Origin: Persicirhabdus sediminis
GTDB lineage: Bacteria > Verrucomicrobiota > Verrucomicrobiia > Verrucomicrobiales > Akkermansiaceae
Direction: 5' to 3'
Assembly: GCF_016595495.1 (NCBI RefSeq)
Contig: NZ_JAENIM010000042.1
Coordinates: 1 to 64,000, forward strand
DNA length: 64,000 nucleotides
Under the pieces are notes generated by a model. That model saw only the letters and a program-made list of their open reading frames with translations. It did not search any database and had not been told where the DNA came from. The position numbers and the translations under genes were made by a program. Below are positions 4,310-50,460 of the stretch, piece by piece. Numbering within the stretch: position 1 is the stretch's first letter; the number at the start of each line of letters is the position of its first letter.

Positions 4310-5731
4310 ATGAACACTTTGAAAAAATCGATTGCAGCTGGCTTTTTTGCCCTCACAGCTACGGCCATGACGTCGCAGGCGCAGCAGCCCAATATCATCG
4401 TCATTCTCACCGACGACATGTGCTACAATGCCATCAGCTACACTGGCGGCCCAGTCGCCACGCCAAACCTAGACAGCCTCTGCACCGAAGGCACCTTTTC
4501 CCCACAAGGATACTCTACCCACGCCGTCTGCGCGCCAGCTCGAGCAGGTCTGATGACTGGCCGGTTTCAGGCTAGATTTGGCTACGAAACACTCACTGAT
4601 ACCAACGAGATCGCCAACAAATACGACTACGGCGTGGATACCAATGAAATCATGCTGCCGCAGGTGCTCAAGGAAGTTGGCTACAAAACCAGCTTTTTTG
4701 GCAAATGGCACCTTGGAGGCAACGACAAATACGCGCCATTCAACCGCGGATTTGACTACACACTCGGCTTCGAAGGCCGCTGCTCGTACTTCAGACTCAG
4801 CTCCGGCAAATACCCACTTCTGAAAAATGGCAAACCCGTCAAAGGGCTCGCCGATGATGTCTACCTCGGCGACTACCTCGCTGAAAATGCCAGCAAGTTC
4901 ATTCATGAAAATAAGGACACTCCCTTTTTCATGTACTTTGCAGACTATGCCATGCACGGGCCATTTCAGGCACCCAAGGCTGATATTCCCAAAGGAAAAC
5001 ATTCCTACCACGGGCTCGTCAAAGCCTTCGATCGCACCGTAGGCACCCTGCTCACCGCGCTCGATGAAAGCGGCCAGCGCGACAATACCTTGATCTTTTT
5101 CATGAGCGACAACGGCGGCATAACCAAAGAAGAAATCATTGAAGCAGGCTTCAACAATGGCCCATTGCGCGGCGGCAAAGCCCGTTATACCGAAGGCGGC
5201 ATCCGCGTGCCATACGCCATCAGCTGGCCAGCTCAGTTTGGCGGCAAGGGAGATTTTGACTACCCAATCTCATCACTCGACATCTTCCCCACCTCAGTAG
5301 CCGCCGCTGGTGGAAAATTGCCAAATGACCGCGAGTACGACGGCATCAACCTACTGCCCTACCTCAAAGGCGAAAAAACCGGGCTGGAAAAACGCACACT
5401 CATGTGGCGCGCTATCGACGGCCACGCCATCCGCAAAGGTGACCATAAACTCGTCTGGGTTCGCGACAAAGCCACCACCCGTAAGCTCGACCTCAAAGAA
5501 GGCATCAATCCAAAAAAACGCCCTGAGAATTACAAAATCTTGCCGCCACGCTACCAGCACCGCAAACAAGATGGATATTATTTCCCCGCCGAACTCTACA
5601 ACCTCAGCAAAGATGTAGGCGAAACCAATAACATCGCCGAGCAAAACCCTGAGATCGTCAAGGAACTCATTAAAGAGCTCGACCGCTTCGACAATCTCAG
5701 CAGCCAGCCACAATATCAGCTCAATAAATAA
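4310..5731 (+). CDS. Secreted sulfatase (formylglycine-dependent)
   Basis: A 473-residue sulfatase that hydrolyses sulfate esters, probably of algal or animal polysaccharides, outside the cytoplasm. Residues 1-24 form a signal peptide ending near SQA-QQ. Family motifs in order are the metal-binding TDDM near residue 34, the CAPAR signature at Cys74 (the Cys converted to formylglycine; C-x-P-x-R), GKWHLG around residue 130, and SDNGG near residue 266. Full length for the family. The exact substrate cannot be read from the sequence. It has no visible partner such as a carbohydrate-binding or SusD-like gene. A second sulfatase sits at 61,021. Confidence 0.93.
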   Translation: MNTLKKSIAAGFFALTATAMTSQAQQPNIIVILTDDMCYNAISYTGGPVATPNLDSLCTEGTFSPQGYSTHAVCAPARAGLMTGRFQARFGYETLTDTNEIANKYDYGVDTNEIMLPQVLKEVGYKTSFFGKWHLGGNDKYAPFNRGFDYTLGFEGRCSYFRLSSGKYPLLKNGKPVKGLADDVYLGDYLAENASKFIHENKDTPFFMYFADYAMHGPFQAPKADIPKGKHSYHGLVKAFDRTVGTLLTALDESGQRDNTLIFFMSDNGGITKEEIIEAGFNNGPLRGGKARYTEGGIRVPYAISWPAQFGGKGDFDYPISSLDIFPTSVAAAGGKLPNDREYDGINLLPYLKGEKTGLEKRTLMWRAIDGHAIRKGDHKLVWVRDKATTRKLDLKEGINPKKRPENYKILPPRYQHRKQDGYYFPAELYNLSKDVGETNNIAEQNPEIVKELIKELDRFDNLSSQPQYQLNK

Positions 5732-5822
5732 ACTTCAGCTGGCTCGGAAAGAATCCAGCCAGCTGAACCTTCGTTAGCTCAGAGTCATCTAGCCAGATTT
5801 CCATTGATCATCTAACGATCTA

Positions 5823-5860
5823 ATCTATCTTTTTCTCAGATGTCTGAGGAAAAGATAGAT
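5823..5860 (+). promoter_or_regulatory. Inverted repeat covering the start codon (copy 1)
   Basis: The arms 5823-5840 and 5843-5860 are 18 bp each with a 2-base centre, and the ATG (5840-5842) sits exactly at the centre. One position differs from perfect symmetry, and in RNA it would still pair as U-G. No Shine-Dalgarno sequence lies outside the hairpin. It could block ribosome entry, or be a two-fold symmetric operator. Confidence 0.75.
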
Positions 5861-6409
5861 CTAGCTAGTAGTGAATATGAGCATGAGCTCGAACCGCCCA
5901 AACTAACGGCAAGATCTAAATTCAACACTATATTTCAGATCTCCCTCGCTGGCAGTTGGCTGCTGCTTGACGTTCTGCGCGACGCCCCCTTCCCTTGGCA
6001 TAAGTATCTAATCATTTTAACTATCATACTTGGCTTTTTTGCGCTCGTCTACGCCCACCGACGAGCTGGCTCACCATTTTCCCACCAGCTCCAACGATTT
6101 AATGACTTTTGGAATCGTCCGGTTCAAATCATTCCTAACGAAATCAAAACAATCCAGTTCCGGCGCTGGCCAAAGAAGAGTCCGCGATATCTGATTCGCT
6201 GGAATGATCAATCGCTGTCGCTCATTAGCAAAAGTGCCGACGGTAATATCGAGGAAATCGTCCAGTCCAAATGGGACGAGCTCGTCTCTATCATTACCGA
6301 TCAGGGAGGTTATGATATTCACTTCAAGGGAGGCCGATGCATTCGCCTCTATAATGACGAACTCAGCAAAGAACTCGACGACCAGCTAGAAAAACACCGA
6401 AGTAACTAA
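5840..6409 (+). CDS. Duplicated membrane protein of unknown function (copy 1)
   Basis: 189 residues. A charged N-terminus (MSEEKIDLASSEYEHEL) is followed by two hydrophobic segments at about residues 33-48 and 53-72, then a soluble C-terminal domain with a basic RRWPKKSPRYLIRW stretch. The layout resembles small two-helix proteins with a cytoplasmic PH-like domain, but no family is recognised with confidence. Its twin follows at 6540 with a near-identical upstream region. The start codon lies at the centre of an 18-bp inverted repeat, so expression is probably controlled at initiation. Confidence 0.75.
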   Translation: MSEEKIDLASSEYEHELEPPKLTARSKFNTIFQISLAGSWLLLDVLRDAPFPWHKYLIILTIILGFFALVYAHRRAGSPFSHQLQRFNDFWNRPVQIIPNEIKTIQFRRWPKKSPRYLIRWNDQSLSLISKSADGNIEEIVQSKWDELVSIITDQGGYDIHFKGGRCIRLYNDELSKELDDQLEKHRSN

Positions 6410-6522
6410 GCTGCTAACTGGCTGGAAATAAACTTCAGCTGGCTCGGAAAAATTCCAGCCAGCTGAACCTTCGTTAGCTCAGAGTCATCTAGCCAGATTT
6501 CCATTGATCACCTAACGATCTA

Positions 6523-6560
6523 ATCTATCTTTTCCTCAGATGTCTGAGGAAAAGATAGAT
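6523..6560 (+). promoter_or_regulatory. Perfect 18-bp inverted repeat centred on a start codon (copy 2)
   Basis: ATCTATCTTTTCCTCAGA (6523-6540) and TCTGAGGAAAAGATAGAT (6543-6560) are exact reverse complements with only TG between them. The ATG spans the end of the left arm and the centre. In mRNA this would be a long hairpin hiding the start codon. Confidence 0.85.
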
Positions 6561-7127
6561 CTAGCTAGTAGTGAATATGAGCATGAGCTCGAGCTCAAGT
6601 CACCCGAGCTAACGGCAAGATACATATTCTTCAGAGTATGCCTGTTCGGCTTATGGTTATGGTTATGTTCCCAGTTTTTTCTGCGCTATGGTCGCTTTGA
6701 ATGGCAGCAATTTCTGTTCTTCCTATCCATCATACTCGGCTTTTATGCGCTCCGCTACGCATGCAAAATAGCCTACCGACGAGCTGGCTCACCATTTGCC
6801 CACCAGCTCCAACGATTTGAGGACTTTTGGAAAAGTCCGGTTCAAATCATTCCTAACGAAATCAAAACAATCCAGTTCCGGCGCTGGCCAAAGAAGAGTC
6901 CGCGATATCTGATTCGCTGGAATGATCAATCGCTGACGCTCATTAGCAAAACTGCCGACGGTAATATCGAGGAAATCGTTCAGTCCAAATGGGACGAGCT
7001 CGCCTCTATCATTACCGACCAGGGAGGTTATGATATTCACTTCAAGGGAGGCCGATACATTCGCCTCTATAATGACCAACTCAGCAAAGAACTCTGCGAC
7101 CAGCTAGAAAAACACCGAAGCAACTAA
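6540..7127 (+). CDS. Duplicated membrane protein of unknown function (copy 2)
   Basis: 195 residues and paralogous to the gene at 5840. The first ~17 residues and everything after about residue 80 are almost identical to copy 1. Between them is a longer, different hydrophobic region (aromatic and Leu/Trp-rich, about residues 28-75) with two likely membrane helices. So the soluble domain is conserved while the membrane part differs, as would fit proteins with a common cytoplasmic role and different membrane partners. The function is unknown. Confidence 0.75.
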   Translation: MSEEKIDLASSEYEHELELKSPELTARYIFFRVCLFGLWLWLCSQFFLRYGRFEWQQFLFFLSIILGFYALRYACKIAYRRAGSPFAHQLQRFEDFWKSPVQIIPNEIKTIQFRRWPKKSPRYLIRWNDQSLTLISKTADGNIEEIVQSKWDELASIITDQGGYDIHFKGGRYIRLYNDQLSKELCDQLEKHRSN

Positions 7128-7170
7128 GCTGCTAACTGGCTGGAAATACGCTCACACTAACTTCCTCCAG

Positions 7171-12338: not shown

Positions 12339-13112
12339 TCACTTGTCAGCAGTCACCACCGAAAGTGGTTGCTTTGCCATGAGCATCGTCAGCTTGGCTG
12401 AGTCTAGCACATACTTCTTCACCACTGCATTATCCAGCGCGAGAAAGTTTTCAGCCCCTAGGGTATAGAACACTTTGATAGAATGATAGATCATTTCTCT
12501 GTCTGTGGTGCCAAACATGCTTTTGCCCTTTTTCACCTCATAGGGCTGCCCCATCTCAGCGTAGATGTCGTAGAGCCCTTCCTCTACAGCTTTAGCCTGG
12601 TGCGTCATCGTCAGGCGTCCACTACCTGCCATGACACACTTATACACCGCAGCGCCCTTCAAAGTGTCACTTTCAGCGTATGGCCCGAGATCAGTAACAC
12701 TTTTCAGAAACATAAGGCTTGGAACGTTTCGATAGATTAGCATTTCCCGTTCAGATGGAGCGTCTGTATCATCTGCCACTCGTAACTGTCTCGATTCGTC
12801 TTTGTACTGAATAGAATCATTAATGATCACCAACTTAGGCTCTATCTGAGCTCCCTCACGTTGCCAAACAACATCTTGGACATCAACAGCTAAAGAAGCT
12901 GGATCTTTCAAACGATCCTCCCGCAAAACAGACACCACAACATCAGAGCTATTGAGCAAGTAGGCGAGGTTATCCCTAACTCCTGTTAGCTCCAGTGGAA
13001 TTCTATTCCCGTCCTTATCATAGGTAATTTCATCTGAAGCACCGCTAGCAAAGCCCGCCAGTAAAGTACTATTCATGACCACAAACAAACTAAGAAATGC
13101 TATAAGCTTCAT
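12339..13112 (-). CDS. Secreted protein, paralogue 1 of a local family
   Basis: 257 residues with a signal peptide (MKLIAFLSLFVVMNSTLLAG). The same protein family is encoded at 13,313 (about 90% identical) and, frameshifted, at 10,042. Conserved blocks are an early ELTGVRDNLAYLLNSSDVVV segment, a central APSEREMLIY and a C-terminal KSMFGTTDREMIYHSIKVFY. No known domain is recognised. The whole unit, including its promoter region, is duplicated with an offset of about 974 bp. The N-terminal ASDEITYDKDGNRIPLELTG recurs unchanged in the neighbour. Confidence 0.8.
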   Translation of the reverse strand: MKLIAFLSLFVVMNSTLLAGFASGASDEITYDKDGNRIPLELTGVRDNLAYLLNSSDVVVSVLREDRLKDPASLAVDVQDVVWQREGAQIEPKLVIINDSIQYKDESRQLRVADDTDAPSEREMLIYRNVPSLMFLKSVTDLGPYAESDTLKGAAVYKCVMAGSGRLTMTHQAKAVEEGLYDIYAEMGQPYEVKKGKSMFGTTDREMIYHSIKVFYTLGAENFLALDNAVVKKYVLDSAKLTMLMAKQPLSVVTADK

Positions 13113-13312: not shown

Positions 13313-14089
13313 TCACTTGTCAGCAGTCACCACCGAAAGTGGTTGCTTTGCCATGAGCTCCGTCAGCTTGGCTGAGTCTAGCACATACTTCTTCACCACT
13401 GCATTATCCAGCGCGAGAAAGTTTTCAGCCCCGAGGGTATAGAACACTTTGATAGAATGATAGATCATTTCTCTGTCTGTGGTGCCAAACATGCTTTTGC
13501 CCTTTTTCACCACATAGGGCTGAGTCATCTTAGCATAGACATCGAAGGTCCCTTCCTCCGCAGCTTTAGCCTGGTGCGTCATCGTCAGGCATCCACTACC
13601 TGCCATGACACACTTATAGACCGCAGCGCCCTTCAAAGTGTTACTTTTCGCGTATGGCCCAAGATCAGTAACACTTTTCAGAAACATAAGGCTTGGAACG
13701 TTTTCATAGATTAGCATTTCCCGTTCAGATGGAGCGTCCGTAACATCTGCCGCTCGTAACTGTCTCGATTCGTCTTTGTACTGAATAGAATCATTAATGA
13801 TCACCAACTTAGGCTCTATCTGAGCTCCCTCACGCTGCCAAACAACATCTTGGACATCAACAGCTAAAGAGGTTGGTTCAGCCTTCAAACGATGCTCCAA
13901 CAAAACAGAAACCACAACATCAGAGCTATTGAGCAAGTAGGCGAGGTTATTCCTAACTCCTGTTAGTTCAAGGGGAATTCTATTCCCGTCCTTATCATAG
14001 GTAATTTCATCTGAAGCACCGCTAGCAAAGCCCGCCAGTAAAGTACTATTCATGACCACAAACAAACTAAGAAATGCTATAAGCTTCAT
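13313..14089 (-). CDS. Secreted protein, paralogue 2 of a local family
   Basis: 258 residues and the tandem twin of the gene at 12,339, from signal peptide to identical last 14 residues. Differences cluster in two short stretches (residues about 63-73 and 185-200), where the sequences are also least conserved against the third, frameshifted member. The function is unknown. The 200 bp upstream of both genes is almost identical. Confidence 0.8.
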   Translation of the reverse strand: MKLIAFLSLFVVMNSTLLAGFASGASDEITYDKDGNRIPLELTGVRNNLAYLLNSSDVVVSVLLEHRLKAEPTSLAVDVQDVVWQREGAQIEPKLVIINDSIQYKDESRQLRAADVTDAPSEREMLIYENVPSLMFLKSVTDLGPYAKSNTLKGAAVYKCVMAGSGCLTMTHQAKAAEEGTFDVYAKMTQPYVVKKGKSMFGTTDREMIYHSIKVFYTLGAENFLALDNAVVKKYVLDSAKLTELMAKQPLSVVTADK

Positions 14090-14254: not shown

Positions 14255-15145
14255 TCACCCACGAGGGTGAATCCTCTGGTGCATGGATTTCAATCCTTTC
14301 TGGTCAACGTGGGTATACACCTGCGTGGTGGCAATGTCGGCGTGACCTAGCATTTCCTGAATCACTCGCAAATCCGCACCATTCTGCAGCAGATGGGTCG
14401 CAAATGAATGGCGCAACAAATGCGGGTAGATTTTGCTATCAAAGCCAGCCAGTTTGGCGCGTTGTTTCACAATCTCACGCACCCGCTCAGAGCTCAGCCT
14501 GCCACCGCGGATGCTAAGAAATAACCACGATGCCGTGCGCGATTTCACTAACTCTTTGCGCTCGCTGGCGAGGTATCGTTGAATCGCCTTCAGCGCTTGA
14601 TCACCAACTGGAACCAAGCGCACCTTCTCCCCTTTGCCCGTCACCCGGATGATGCCTTCGTCGAGGTCGATGTCCTCCAGCCGCACACCACACAGCTCGC
14701 TGAGCCGCAGGCCAGATGCGTAAAACAGCTCTAACATCGCCCGGTCTCGTTTACCTAACGACCGAGTCGTATCAATGCTCTCGAGCAGCTGAGCTAGCTG
14801 GTTTTCATTCATCGTTTCCGGCAGATGCGTGGTGGTTTTCGGCGCAATCAATGGCTCAGCGGGATCACTAACTAGCTCACCACGCGACTGCAAAAAGCGG
14901 AAAAAAATCTTCAAATGCACCACCACAATGCGCTGCGTCGATGGTTGCCAGCCACGCTCTGCCGATTGCGATTTTAAAAACTCACGCAGCTCGTCTACCC
15001 CCAGCTCGCGCCATTCAGTTAGCTTACGGTCAGCGGCAAAATCAGCTAGAAAACTCAACGACTGCACCACCGAGCTCTGGTAAGCCTCAGACAAACCACG
15101 CTCAATCGCCAAGTGGCGGATAAATAAATCAATTTCTCGCTGCAT
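14255..15145 (-). CDS. xerD: Tyrosine recombinase XerD/XerC
   Basis: 296 residues, the usual length for XerC/XerD, which resolve chromosome dimers at dif during division. An N-terminal SAM-like core-binding domain (residues 1-90) is followed by the catalytic domain with all six active-site residues: Arg147 (ASGLRLSE), Lys171, His242 and Arg245 (HLLRHSFATHLL), His268 (MLGHAD) and Tyr277 (TQVYTHV). It lacks the extra insertion near patch III that marks integron integrases, so it is not IntI. The 3' end and following ~50 bp are duplicated at 10,951. Confidence 0.93.
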   Translation of the reverse strand: MQREIDLFIRHLAIERGLSEAYQSSVVQSLSFLADFAADRKLTEWRELGVDELREFLKSQSAERGWQPSTQRIVVVHLKIFFRFLQSRGELVSDPAEPLIAPKTTTHLPETMNENQLAQLLESIDTTRSLGKRDRAMLELFYASGLRLSELCGVRLEDIDLDEGIIRVTGKGEKVRLVPVGDQALKAIQRYLASERKELVKSRTASWLFLSIRGGRLSSERVREIVKQRAKLAGFDSKIYPHLLRHSFATHLLQNGADLRVIQEMLGHADIATTQVYTHVDQKGLKSMHQRIHPRG

Positions 15146-16087
15146 GCACTAGCATCACAGTCCAGCCAGCTGGTCTGGTCAAGCACCCGATGCCCCGACC
15201 TGCGCTAGCTAGCGGATTCAGCACAGCTCTATCATCACCAATCTAGCTGAAAATTTCACCAACTAACACAACAGCTAAAGTAAATCTGCGTAATCTTAGA
15301 TTAGAACATTTATCTAGCAAGCCGATGCTCCTAGATTTTCATACTATAGAGAAAGGCCCAAGGGGCCGAGATATTCCAGCCCAGTCCAAGGCCGAGCTGA
15401 AGGCTCAACGCAGGGCTGGGTTAGAGATCAAAGAAAGTTGGAGGCCTGAAGGGCCGAGAGAAAGTATAGCCCAGCCAACTCAAGTTTCCAGCCAGCTCAA
15501 GTTTCCAGCCCTCTCAAATTCCCAGCCAGATTACGTTTCCAGCTAGCTCAAGGTTCTGGCTAGAGCGAATTCTAACTAGCCCGGAGGGCTAATGGACTTT
15601 AGCCGCGGGTCAGCGAGCCCAGCGAGCGCAACCCGTGGATAGCCGCCCGTGACATCGTATTTCCCGGAGGGAAAATGGAAAAGTGGGCGACACGGAGGGT
15701 AAATGGAAAACCCGGCTACGTGGAGGCATTGTTTTTAAAATCTCAGCTGACTCGGCGCGTCAGGGTGTGCGGACCGCTAGCTGAAAGCGCCGAAGGATCG
15801 GCGCGCTCCAAAGCCTGCGGCCGCAGTTGCGATGTTTCATATCGACAATTGGCAGAGCTCGTTTGGTGCTGCTCAAGGTTCCAGCTAGCTAGCCCGGAGG
15901 GCTAATGGATTTTAGCCGCGGGTTAGCGAGCCCAGCGAGCACAACCCGTGGTAGCCGCCCATGACATCGTATTTCCCGGAGGGAAAATGGAAAAGTGGGC
16001 GACACGGAGGGAAAATGGAAAACCCGGCTACGTGCAGACATTGTTAGTCAAAATCTACACTAAGCTGGGATTAAACTAGCTGTAGAT
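15146..16087. repeat. Repeat island II, non-coding
   Basis: No credible gene. Contains the GGCCCAAGGGGCC...CTGGGCTG hairpin element in forward orientation (about 15352-15475), four CCAGCC(A)...TTTCCAG units (15475-15545), and two copies of the GCCCGGAGGGCTAATGGACT element (from about 15575 and 15889). The first has the long tail with GCGCCGAAGGATCGGCGC; the second stops after GGAAAACCCGGCTACGTG. Short open frames at 15325 and 15675 are repeat products. Confidence 0.8.
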
Positions 16088-41382: not shown

Positions 41383-42530
41383 GAAGAATATCCTTCCCCA
41401 TTCGACCCGCTGGATCAAACTCATCCACCTGACTAGCCTATAGTTAGGCGGCGCCGAAGGTGCCAAAGAACAAAGCCCAGGGCTTCAGCCCTGGGTAGAT
41501 TCAGCAAAACAAGCGTGTCCTGAAAGGACACCAGAAAACTCCTACCACGCCAGCTAACACATACTCATCTAATCTAGCTAGCTAACTCCCAGCCAAATGC
41601 CAAAGGCATCCAACAGCCTAGCCTATGGTAAGGCAGCGCCGAAGGTGCAACGCAACCATAGGACCCAGCCACACATAAATTCTCAGCTCTGAAAGAGCGG
41701 TACAAGGCATGACCAGACAGACAAACTGAGCCCCCTCTAACAACCCGACCCAAAGTGCTCCACCTAGCTGGCCAGCCCGAAGGGCTGATGGACTCTAGCC
41801 GCGGGTAAGCGAGCCCAGCGAGCGCCACCCGTGGTTAGCCAAGCAAAGCAAAGGATTTCCCGAAGGGAAAATGGAACCCTCCAGCTAGCACATACTCATC
41901 AAACCTAGCTAGCGCCTATCTGACTAGTCTGCGCCCTACAAAAAAGCCGATGCAGTATAACATCCCTGCCTATAGTTAGGCCGCGCCGAAGGTGCCAAAG
42001 AACAAAGCCCAGGGCTTCAGCCCTGGGTAGATTCAGCAAAGCAAGAGTGTCCTGAAAGGACACCAGAAAACTCCTACCACGCCAGCTAGCTCACATTCAT
42101 CCAAACTAGCTAACTCCCAGCCAAATGCCAAAGGCATCCAACAGCCTAGCCTATGGTAAGGCAGCGCCGAAGGTGCAACGCAACCATAGGTCACCAGCAC
42201 CAGACACAATCCCAGCTCTGAAAGAGCGACACACAGAATATATAGACAAACAGTCTGAGGTATGGCCGTTTTCCCCTGTGCTCTGAAGCCATCCCCCCAT
42301 TAGCTAACCATGTCTAACTAGCTGAAATATCCACCTAGCTGGCTAGCCCGGAGGGCTTACAGACTTTAGCCGCGGGTAAGCGAGCCCAGCGAGCGCCACC
42401 CGTGGTTAGCCAAGCAAAGCAAAGGATTTCCCGAAGGGAAAATGGAACCTACCATGCCCTTAACCAACTTGCGCACAAGGCTGCTTTTACATGATTTCCA
42501 TTTCCTCGACTTCAAATAATCAAGAAACAG

Positions 42531-48149: not shown

Positions 48150-50460
48150 AACTCTGTGCCCCACCCCATTAGCTAGCCCAATATTAGCTAGGGAGAACAT
48201 CCAGCCAGCTGGCGTATGGCCGCCACGCTGTGGCTCCTCCATTCTTCGGCTAGCTAACCCTGGGCGGTGCCCAGGGCTTCGATAGGTCGCCGCTCCGCGG
48301 CTAGCTGAACCTCGTATGATTGCCGCTCCGCGGCTAGCGGGAACATCCATCTAGCTGGCCAGCCCGAAGGGCTGATGGATTTTAGCCGCGGGTCAGCGAG
48401 CCCAGCGAGCGCCACCCGTGGGTCCCATGCCGAGATGACGATTTCCCCGAGGGAAAATGGAACCAAACGCTGGCTGGAACAAACCAGCCAGCTGGCGTAT
48501 GGCCGCCACGCTGTGGCTCCTCCATTCTTCGGCTAGCTAACCCTGGGCGGTGCCCAGGGCTTCGATAGGTCGCCGCTCCGCGGCTAGCTGAACCTCGTAT
48601 GATTCCCGTCCGCGGCTAGCTGAAACACCCATCTAGCTGGCCAGCCCGGAGGGCTGATGGATTTTAGCCGCGGGTAAGTGAGCTCAGCGAGCGCCACCCG
48701 TGGATCCCACGCCGAGAGGACGATTTCCCGGAGGGAAAATGGAACCAAGCGCTGGCTGGTACAAACCGCTACCTGGTGGATGGCCGCCACGATGTGGCTA
48801 CTCCATTCTTCGGCTAGCTAACCCTGGGCGGTGCCCAGGGCTTCGATAGGTCGCCGCTCCGCGGCTAACTCGAACAAATCGCTAGCTAGGAACCAAGCGC
48901 TGGCTGGTGCAAACCACCAGCTGGTGCATGGCCGCCACGATGTGGCTCCTCCATTCTTCGGCTAGCTAACCCTGGGCGGTGCCCAGGGCTTCGATAGGTC
49001 GCCGCTCCGCGGCTAGCTGAACCTCGTATGATTGCCGCTCCGCGGCTAGCGGGAACATCCATCTAGCTGGCCAGCCCGAAGGGCTGATGGATTTTAGCCG
49101 CGGGTCAGCGAGCCCAGCGAGCGCCACCCGTGGATCCCACGGCGCACAGGAGGATTTCCCGGAGGGAAAATAGAACCAAGCGCTGGCTGAAACAAACCGC
49201 TAGCTGGCGTATGGCCGCCACGCTGTGGCTCCGCAATTCTTTGGCTAGCTAACCCTGGGCGATGCCCAGGGCTTCGATAGGTCGCCGCTCCGCGGCTAGC
49301 GGGAACATCCATCTAGCTGGTCAGCCCGAAGGGCTGATGGATTTTAGCCGCGGGTAAGTGAGCTCAGCGAGCGCCACCCGTGGATCCCACGCCGAGAGGA
49401 CGATTTCCCGGAGGGAAAATGGAACCAAGCGCTGGCTGAAACAAACCGCTAGCTGGCGTATGGCCGCCACGCTGTGGCTCCTCCTTTCTTCAGCTAGCTA
49501 ACCCTGGGCGGTGCCCAGGGCTTCGATAGGTCGCCGCTCCGCGGCTAACTCGAACAAATCGCTAGCTAGGAACCAAGCGCTGGCTGAAACAAACCGCTAG
49601 CTGGTGGATGGCCGCCACGCTGTGGCTCCGCAATTCTTCGGCTAGCTAACCCTGGGCGGTGCCCAGGGCTTCGATAGGTCGCCGCTCCGCGGCTAGCTGA
49701 ACCTCGTATGATTGCCGCTCCGCGGCTAGCGGGAACATCCATCTAGCTGGCCAGCCCGAAGGGCTGATGGATTTTAGCCGCGGGTCAGCGAGCCCAGCGA
49801 GCGCCACCCGTGGGTCCCATGCCGAGAGGACGATTTCCCCGAGGGAAAATTGAACCAAACGCTGGCTGGAACAAACCAGCCAGCTGGCGCATGGCCGCCA
49901 CGATGTGGCTACTCCATTCTTCGGCTAGCTAACCCTGGTCGATGCCCAGGGCTTCGATAGGTCGCCGCTCCGCGCTAGCGGGAACCAAGCGCTGGCTGAA
50001 ACAAACCGCTAGCTGACGTATGACCGCCACGCTGTGGCTCCTCCATTCTTCGGCTAGCTAACCCTGGGCGGTGCCCAGGGCTTCGATAGGTCGCCGCTCC
50101 GCGGCTAGCTGAACCTCGTATGATTCCCGTCCGCGCTAGCTGGAACCAAGCGCTGGCTGGTACAAACCGCTAGCTGGTGTGTGGCCGCCACGCTGTGGCT
50201 CCTCCATTCTTTGGCTAGCTAACCCTGGGCGGTGCCCAGGGCTTCGATAGGTCGCCGCTCCGCGGCTAGCTGGAACAAATCGCTAGCTAGGAACCAAGCG
50301 CTAGCTGGAAGAAATTTCCAGCTCGTGTGTTCCGCCACAAGGTGCCTGCACGACTCTTCGGCTACCTTTTCCTTGGCCGATCCCATGGCTTCGCTAGCCC
50401 ACCGCTCCGCGGTCAGCGCGACCTACTATGATCACCGTCCGCGGCTAGCTGGGGAAAATG
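48150..50460. repeat. Repeat island V: ten-copy mosaic of hairpin modules
   Basis: Ten copies of the core AACCCTGGGCGGTGCCCAGG (starting at 48256, 48539, 48820, 48968, 49251, 49500, 49648, 49931, 50060 and 50221) and a degenerate eleventh near 50367. Spacing is 283, 281, 148, 283, 249, 148, 283, 129 and 161 bp. Long units add AGCCCGAAGGGCT, CCGCGGGT...ACCCGTGG and TTTCCCGGAGGGAAA modules; short units lack them. TGGCCGCCACGCTGTGGC and GTCGCCGCTCCGCGGC occur in nearly all. The open frames here are repeat products. Confidence 0.9.

Follow-up and report, generated by a model that had tools for sequence, protein, structure and literature searches.

We find that two tandem orphan genes of Persicirhabdus sediminis carry their start codon at the centre of a long palindrome, which is a real and rare sequence feature. 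Sequence comparisons give moderate support to a leaderless-type promoter for both copies, with its -10 box inside the left arm, and the hairpin that the palindrome encodes is probably absent from the gene's own message. We tentatively propose, with somewhat less than even confidence, that the palindrome straddles a leaderless promoter in such a way that the gene's own mRNA would escape the hairpin and read-through RNA would be silenced by it.

A palindrome centred on a start codon

The palindrome of copy 2 occupies 38 bases on the forward strand of the window (the whole stretch of DNA analysed, 64,000 nucleotides). Its 18-bp left arm (6523..6540) and 18-bp right arm (6543..6560) are exact reverse complements with a 2-base spacer, and the ATG (6540..6542) lies at the centre, its A being the final base of the left arm; the right arm is also coding sequence (SEEKID). 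The palindrome of copy 1 (5823-5860, with arms at 5823..5840 and 5843..5860 on the same strand) differs by a single base of the left arm, T5834 in place of C6534, which in RNA still pairs as U-G. Both the ATG-centred perfect repeat and the pairing-neutral difference in the paralogue had been described in a first-pass annotation, and both were confirmed. That annotation also depended on the ATG being the true start rather than a codon downstream of the hairpin, and here it holds up well: in either ORF this is the only in-frame ATG, GTG or TTG, and in copy 2 an in-frame TAA at 6513 is separated from it by eight codons, none of which is a start.

RNA carrying both arms is predicted to fold with -25.0 kcal/mol for copy 2 and -22.1 for copy 1, and none of 200 shuffles folded as well in either case. 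The predicted hairpin has a 17-bp stem and a four-base AUGU loop, in which the AUG is unpaired (predicted probability 1.0). To place this among the hairpins of the organism's own genome, we scanned 1,437,285 bases of it (the window plus fetched stretches) and found 59 perfect hairpins with arms of at least 13 and a loop of at most 10. Two of them have arms of 18, so that the start-codon palindrome ties for the longest; the other has arms ending in A7/T7 and looks like a two-way terminator. First-order Markov simulations of 3 x 637,285 bases yielded no arm above 13, and the palindrome is therefore not a product of chance. Several long hairpins of this genome use AGCT, AGCTAGCT or CCAGCTGG, words that are abundant in the 637-kb sample: AGCT occurs 5,876 times where base composition predicts 2,326, AGCTAGCT 159 times instead of 8.5 and CCAGCTGG 260 times instead of 7.9, the last two not exceeding what their sub-words predict.

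A transcription terminator was considered and rejected for the palindrome: its stem is A+U-rich, no T-run follows it, and the terminator scan did not report it. At gathering score, Rfam has no match over 6523-6560, and the window matches only Acido-Lenti-1, elsewhere. These Acido-Lenti-1 matches are ten in number, at 41450-42027 and 48258-50267, eight of them in a noncoding G+C-rich repeat array at 48.2-50.3 kb. A search of genome_contigs for TTTYCTCAGANNTCTGAGGAAA returned 2 places (L123 and L124) with other centres (AA and CT), where we estimate about 1 by chance, and the viral contigs gave 0 matches to TTTYCTCAGANNTCTGAGGAAA.

In the 637,285-base sample, with 1,323 candidate starts (a figure that includes alternative starts of single ORFs), no other ATG-centred hairpin was found at a start that we credit as real, and the start-codon palindrome is thus not a general device of this genome. 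Two apparent parallels were discarded. At L041 a 13-bp perfect hairpin (15307-15335) is centred on an upstream ATG, between a tRNA-like sequence on the other strand (by eye) and an argC-like ORF, whose likely start lies 25 codons further on. The second, with arms of 11 at L105, is followed by TTTT just past the stop of another ORF and is terminator-like.

Tandem copies of an orphan gene

The palindrome belongs to a unit of 700 bp that is present twice in direct tandem (5726..6425 and 6426..7147, forward strand), with one copy of the gene in each unit (copy 1, 5840..6409, 189 aa; copy 2, 6540..7127, 195 aa; same strand). By eye, AAATA is common to both unit ends, and a simple tandem duplication would suffice. 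Differences between the copies are spread over most of their length, which makes an assembly artefact unlikely. The palindrome itself differs at 1 of 38 positions, the noncoding sequence preceding it at 3 of 97 and the coding bases that follow it at 1 of 33; the C-terminal coding part has 16 differences in 357 positions, whereas the middle has 38 in 141 aligned positions and 18 further positions that are gapped. A codon alignment of the middle (alignment codons 19-80) contains approximately 55 changes, and synonymous divergence is 1.47 there (5894-6052 compared with 6594-6770, a region of predicted helices) and 0.04 in the C-terminal part. Because divergence differs by region, the copies read as a mosaic in which an old or imported middle lies between recently homogenised ends, either through gene conversion of the ends or through import of a divergent middle.

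This bears directly on how the two palindromes should be counted. That the repeat is kept in two copies, as the first-pass annotation put it, is literally true and carries little weight, both copies being part of one 700-bp tandem repeat. The claim that conserved pairing points to function did not survive the comparison: the palindrome belongs to the same homogenised 5' block as its noncoding neighbour and is conserved no more than it, so the two copies are not two pieces of evidence. Moreover, for any Watson-Crick pair 1 in 6 of the possible single changes gives G-U, and one wobble-keeping substitution, often expected by chance, is weak evidence. Given the homogenisation, the palindrome may also be younger than the constraint on the protein.

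Both proteins seem to be produced at present or to have been produced until not long ago. Gaps between the copies preserve the reading frame in the middle, where dN/dS is 0.24 (on 35 synonymous sites and with no error estimate); in the C-terminal part, with 3 synonymous changes beside 13 non-synonymous ones, the value of 1.18 says little. Neither ORF has a family in Pfam or PHROGs, and a single NCBIfam match of copy 1 (E 0.066) falls far below the cut-off. Among solved structures there was no relative (one match at E 1), and a low-confidence structure model of copy 1 (mean pLDDT 48) has long N-terminal helices followed by an alpha/beta part. The genome holds no copies of the gene beyond the two tandem ones. 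Searches of 194 other genomes of the family gave no relative at E <0.001 (best non-self E 0.011), and at that threshold 385 other genomes of the order gave none either (best non-self E 0.0015 over 38 positions), both sets being samples of larger groups. Peptide-pattern scans of genome_contigs and of the viral contigs (two N-terminal peptides in the latter) confirmed no relative either, and neither the unit DNA in plasmids nor the protein in phages gave a match.

An origin without function was weighed against these data. Here, the left arm would have been copied from the right one in a single template switch during replication, or such a switch would have turned a short inverted repeat into a perfect one; later duplication and homogenisation would have copied the result. 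Template switching can generate perfect stems in a single step, as described in PMC8794818, and such correction could leave one copy perfect and the other imperfect, as observed, as could a single C/T change. Also in favour of this view, the palindrome has no match elsewhere in the genome when up to 3 mismatches over 24 bases are allowed, and the gene is an orphan. Yet a neutral hairpin over the sole start would be costly if present in mRNA while the protein is constrained, and the centring on the ATG and on the promoter's start would be left as coincidence. On balance we judge a functionless origin unlikely.

An integron cassette was considered and rejected: 0 of the 10 attC consensus pairs of the window (RYYYAAC/GTTRRRY cores) fall at the tandem units, and the window's own integrase-like ORF scores best as a Xer-type recombinase. 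By eye, the units end in a hairpin bracketed by GCTAAC...GTTAGC, the only such bracket there. The window contains a second tandem pair, of near-identical genes on the reverse strand (12339-13112 and 13313-14089) with upstream DNA that is near-identical by eye, adjoined by a Xer-type recombinase ORF (14258-15145, reverse strand). Elsewhere in the genome (contig C16), a 502-aa ORF at L049 389-1894 scores above the integron-integrase cut-off, with some 200 extra N-terminal residues, and 20 kb scanned with a simple attC consensus contained no convincing cassette array.

A candidate leaderless-type promoter within the palindrome

Each gap upstream of the two genes contains a sole TTG-N15-19-TAnnnT pair, and in both it is TTGATC-16-TATCTT, at -36 and -14 from the ATG. 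In copy 2 the candidate -35 box lies at 6504..6509 and the candidate -10 box at 6526..6531, within the left arm; their counterparts in copy 1 are at 5804..5809 and 5826..5831 (all on the forward strand). Each hexamer matches the consensus, which is that of E. coli, at 4 of 6 bases, and a generic E. coli promoter scan missed the pair because its threshold needs 9 of 12 matches. A TAnnnT some 12 bp upstream of the start is described as a mark of leaderless genes (PMC3160421). A preliminary count had pointed to an excess of TAnnnT and of TTG near gene starts, and a second sample was drawn after it. We counted TTG-N15-19-TAnnnT pairs with the -10 box at -15..-11 across gene starts and compared them with control positions. 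The pair was found at 14 of 292 starts in the first sample (2, 2 and 3 at three control positions) and at 15 of 353 in the later one (controls 4, 2 and 4). Fisher p is 1.9e-4 in the second sample; in the first, with the two palindrome copies left out, it is 4.1e-4.

Pooled, 29 of 645 starts carry the pair, whereas 5-nt intervals from -120 to -30 average 5.5 and hold 13 at most. The nearest control intervals (-25..-21 and -20..-16), with 11 pairs each, lie above the distant mean. From these counts, chance may account for some 20-40% of the 29, and about three fifths to four fifths of them should be real. The -10 box stands at exactly -14 in 7 starts, two of which are the palindrome copies, and TATCTT also serves as the -10 box of two other genes among the 29 listed. 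By eye, the 29 starts share roughly CTTG(A/C)-N16-18-TAnnTT, with about 5-9 bases between its end and the ATG. The features of the leaderless class, a TAnnnT about 10-15 bp before the start and its enrichment genome-wide, are thus both found, with the box of both copies at -14. From the usual spacing, the transcript of copy 2 is predicted to start at 6538-6540.

Such a start would deprive the message of the long stem. For copy 2 RNA that begins at -17 and runs to +60, the predicted folding energy is -34.1 kcal/mol; it weakens to -12.4 kcal/mol if the RNA begins at -2 and to -11.7 if it begins at the ATG. In the leaderless RNA the U and G of the AUG are predicted to be paired downstream (unpaired probability 0.05-0.25), and the A as well if transcription starts at -2. 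This counts against the reading favoured below, since in the full hairpin the AUG is free.

The genome's starts in general are poor in Shine-Dalgarno signals. Among 299 ATG-start ORFs of at least 200 aa, a loose core is found at -20..-4 in 6.7% and at the control position -55..-39 in 7.7%, and a strict core in 4.0% and 2.7%, respectively. The missing Shine-Dalgarno of the palindromic genes, to which the first-pass annotation had drawn attention, is therefore ordinary here and tells us nothing particular about them. Akkermansia is listed among organisms scarce in this signal (PMC10783764). In Prevotella bryantii, where initiation proceeds without Shine-Dalgarno pairing, a pre-start structure of -11.1 kcal/mol lowered protein to 0.7%, as reported in PMC3155529. 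Across 384 ATG-start ORFs of the genome studied here, start-region folding averages -4.4 kcal/mol; a native mRNA with both arms would, by these folding models, rank among the least translatable starts in the sample, though its AUG would be in the loop.

The first-pass annotation had put forward a self-blocking mRNA hairpin, an RNase III target or a palindromic operator. In the first two cases the gene's own mRNA would have both arms, and the hairpin would be opened by a signal (a protein, an antisense RNA or temperature) or cut by RNase III. The stability of the fold, the position of the AUG in its loop and the extreme start-region energies, lowest of the 384 for copy 2 (-25.7 kcal/mol) and third lowest for copy 1 (-22.8), all speak for it. 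A promoter of the leaderless type would leave the left arm out, though, and no TTG/TAnnnT pair exists further upstream in the gap from which a longer RNA could start; the pairing, lying in a shared homogenised block, offers no test between copies. What stands of this claim is a fold far beyond chance with the AUG in its loop whenever both arms are present; that the gene's own mRNA should contain it is doubtful with the -10 box inside the left arm, and we hold a self-blocking native message to be improbable.

As for the operator, transcription would be repressed by a dimeric regulator bound to the 38-bp dyad, a site that spans the -10 box together with roughly the first 20 bases of the transcript. 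An extent from -17 to +21 around the predicted start is suitable for a repressor site, and the dyad symmetry is exact in copy 2. The genome also contains five further core sites with 3 mismatches (0 in a backwards control) and eight further half-sites with 3 mismatches (1 in the control), but no further site within 2 mismatches. Besides, 7 of the 13 loose sites were inspected, and each of these overlaps an ORF of 81 aa or longer; six are contained in ORFs of at least 179 aa, and none is at an ORF start. Neither tandem ORF matches a DNA-binding family in Pfam, PHROGs or NCBIfam, and 18 contiguous perfect pairs per half exceed what a protein half-site usually needs. A role as operator has, to our mind, a low probability.

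Proposed silencing of read-through RNA

In the reading that we favour, of a palindrome straddling a leaderless promoter, RNA polymerase would use TTGATC-16-TATCTT, and the mRNA would begin at the ATG or within two bases of it. Because the -10 box lies inside the left arm, this arm would not be part of the gene's own mRNA, which would carry the right arm only and could not form the long hairpin. RNA entering from upstream would be different. Candidate sources on the same strand are the sulfatase gene ending at 5731, for copy 1, and copy 1 itself, for copy 2; read-through RNA from either would carry both arms, which would form a 17-bp stem with the start codon in its short loop. Such RNA should go untranslated, because its start would be held in a stem-loop in a genome without a Shine-Dalgarno signal. 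The palindrome would in this manner make expression depend on the gene's own promoter. We infer the transcript start, the silencing of read-through and a selective upkeep of the palindrome from the arrangement of the motifs. That the arrangement acts as a full lock on a non-mobile gene, so that only RNA from its own leaderless promoter would be translatable and all read-through, including that from the tandem twin, would be silenced, is a proposal we regard as rather doubtful.

Two strong hairpins on the same strand might already stop read-through. One, just past the stop of the upstream sulfatase gene (5734..5767, -22.7 kcal/mol), was not reported by the terminator scan; its twin (6434..6467, -23.1 kcal/mol) follows copy 1, between both genes. 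Neither has a T-run.

If the proposal were true, it would provide a compact way for translation to depend on the promoter from which a message originates, in a bacterium that lacks Shine-Dalgarno signals, and a logic known from transposons would be found outside them. Independently of this, the sequence evidence for a leaderless class in this genome should be of use in correcting annotated start sites and in understanding how translation begins where Shine-Dalgarno signals are missing.

The transposase genes of IS10 and IS50 are protected from read-through transcription in this way: the two inverted halves are both present in RNA from outside, where they hide the start region, and transcription from the element's own promoter leaves out the first of them. 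The likeness lies in the inverted sequence at the gene start, although in our case the -10 box is placed in the left arm by motif and the transcript start is predicted. In those transposons it is the ribosome binding site that is hidden, whereas here the start codon is the centre of the palindrome and there is no Shine-Dalgarno. Unlike IS10 and IS50, the tandem genes match no transposase family in Pfam, PHROGs or, at its cut-off, NCBIfam and have two copies only in the genome, and so do not qualify as a transposable element. The coat gene of MS2 has its start codon in a hairpin loop. As in MS2, translation would be set by the stability of the stem that holds the AUG in its loop; our case differs in its stem of 17 bp, in the lack of a Shine-Dalgarno and in the probable absence of one arm from the native RNA.

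Small RNAs and 5'-UTR structure have been described for another insertion sequence (PMC8450116). With leaderless bacterial genes the palindromic genes share a -10-like box, here at -14 and joined by a TTG element at -36, but a palindrome over promoter and start codon sets them apart from these genes as described in PMC3160421. A last parallel comes from the mitochondrial genes of Nematomorpha, in which, as in our genes, perfect inverted repeats overlap the coding sequence of translated genes; as described in PMC6649704, those repeats are numerous and lie within genes with both arms coding, whereas ours is a single case with one arm upstream.
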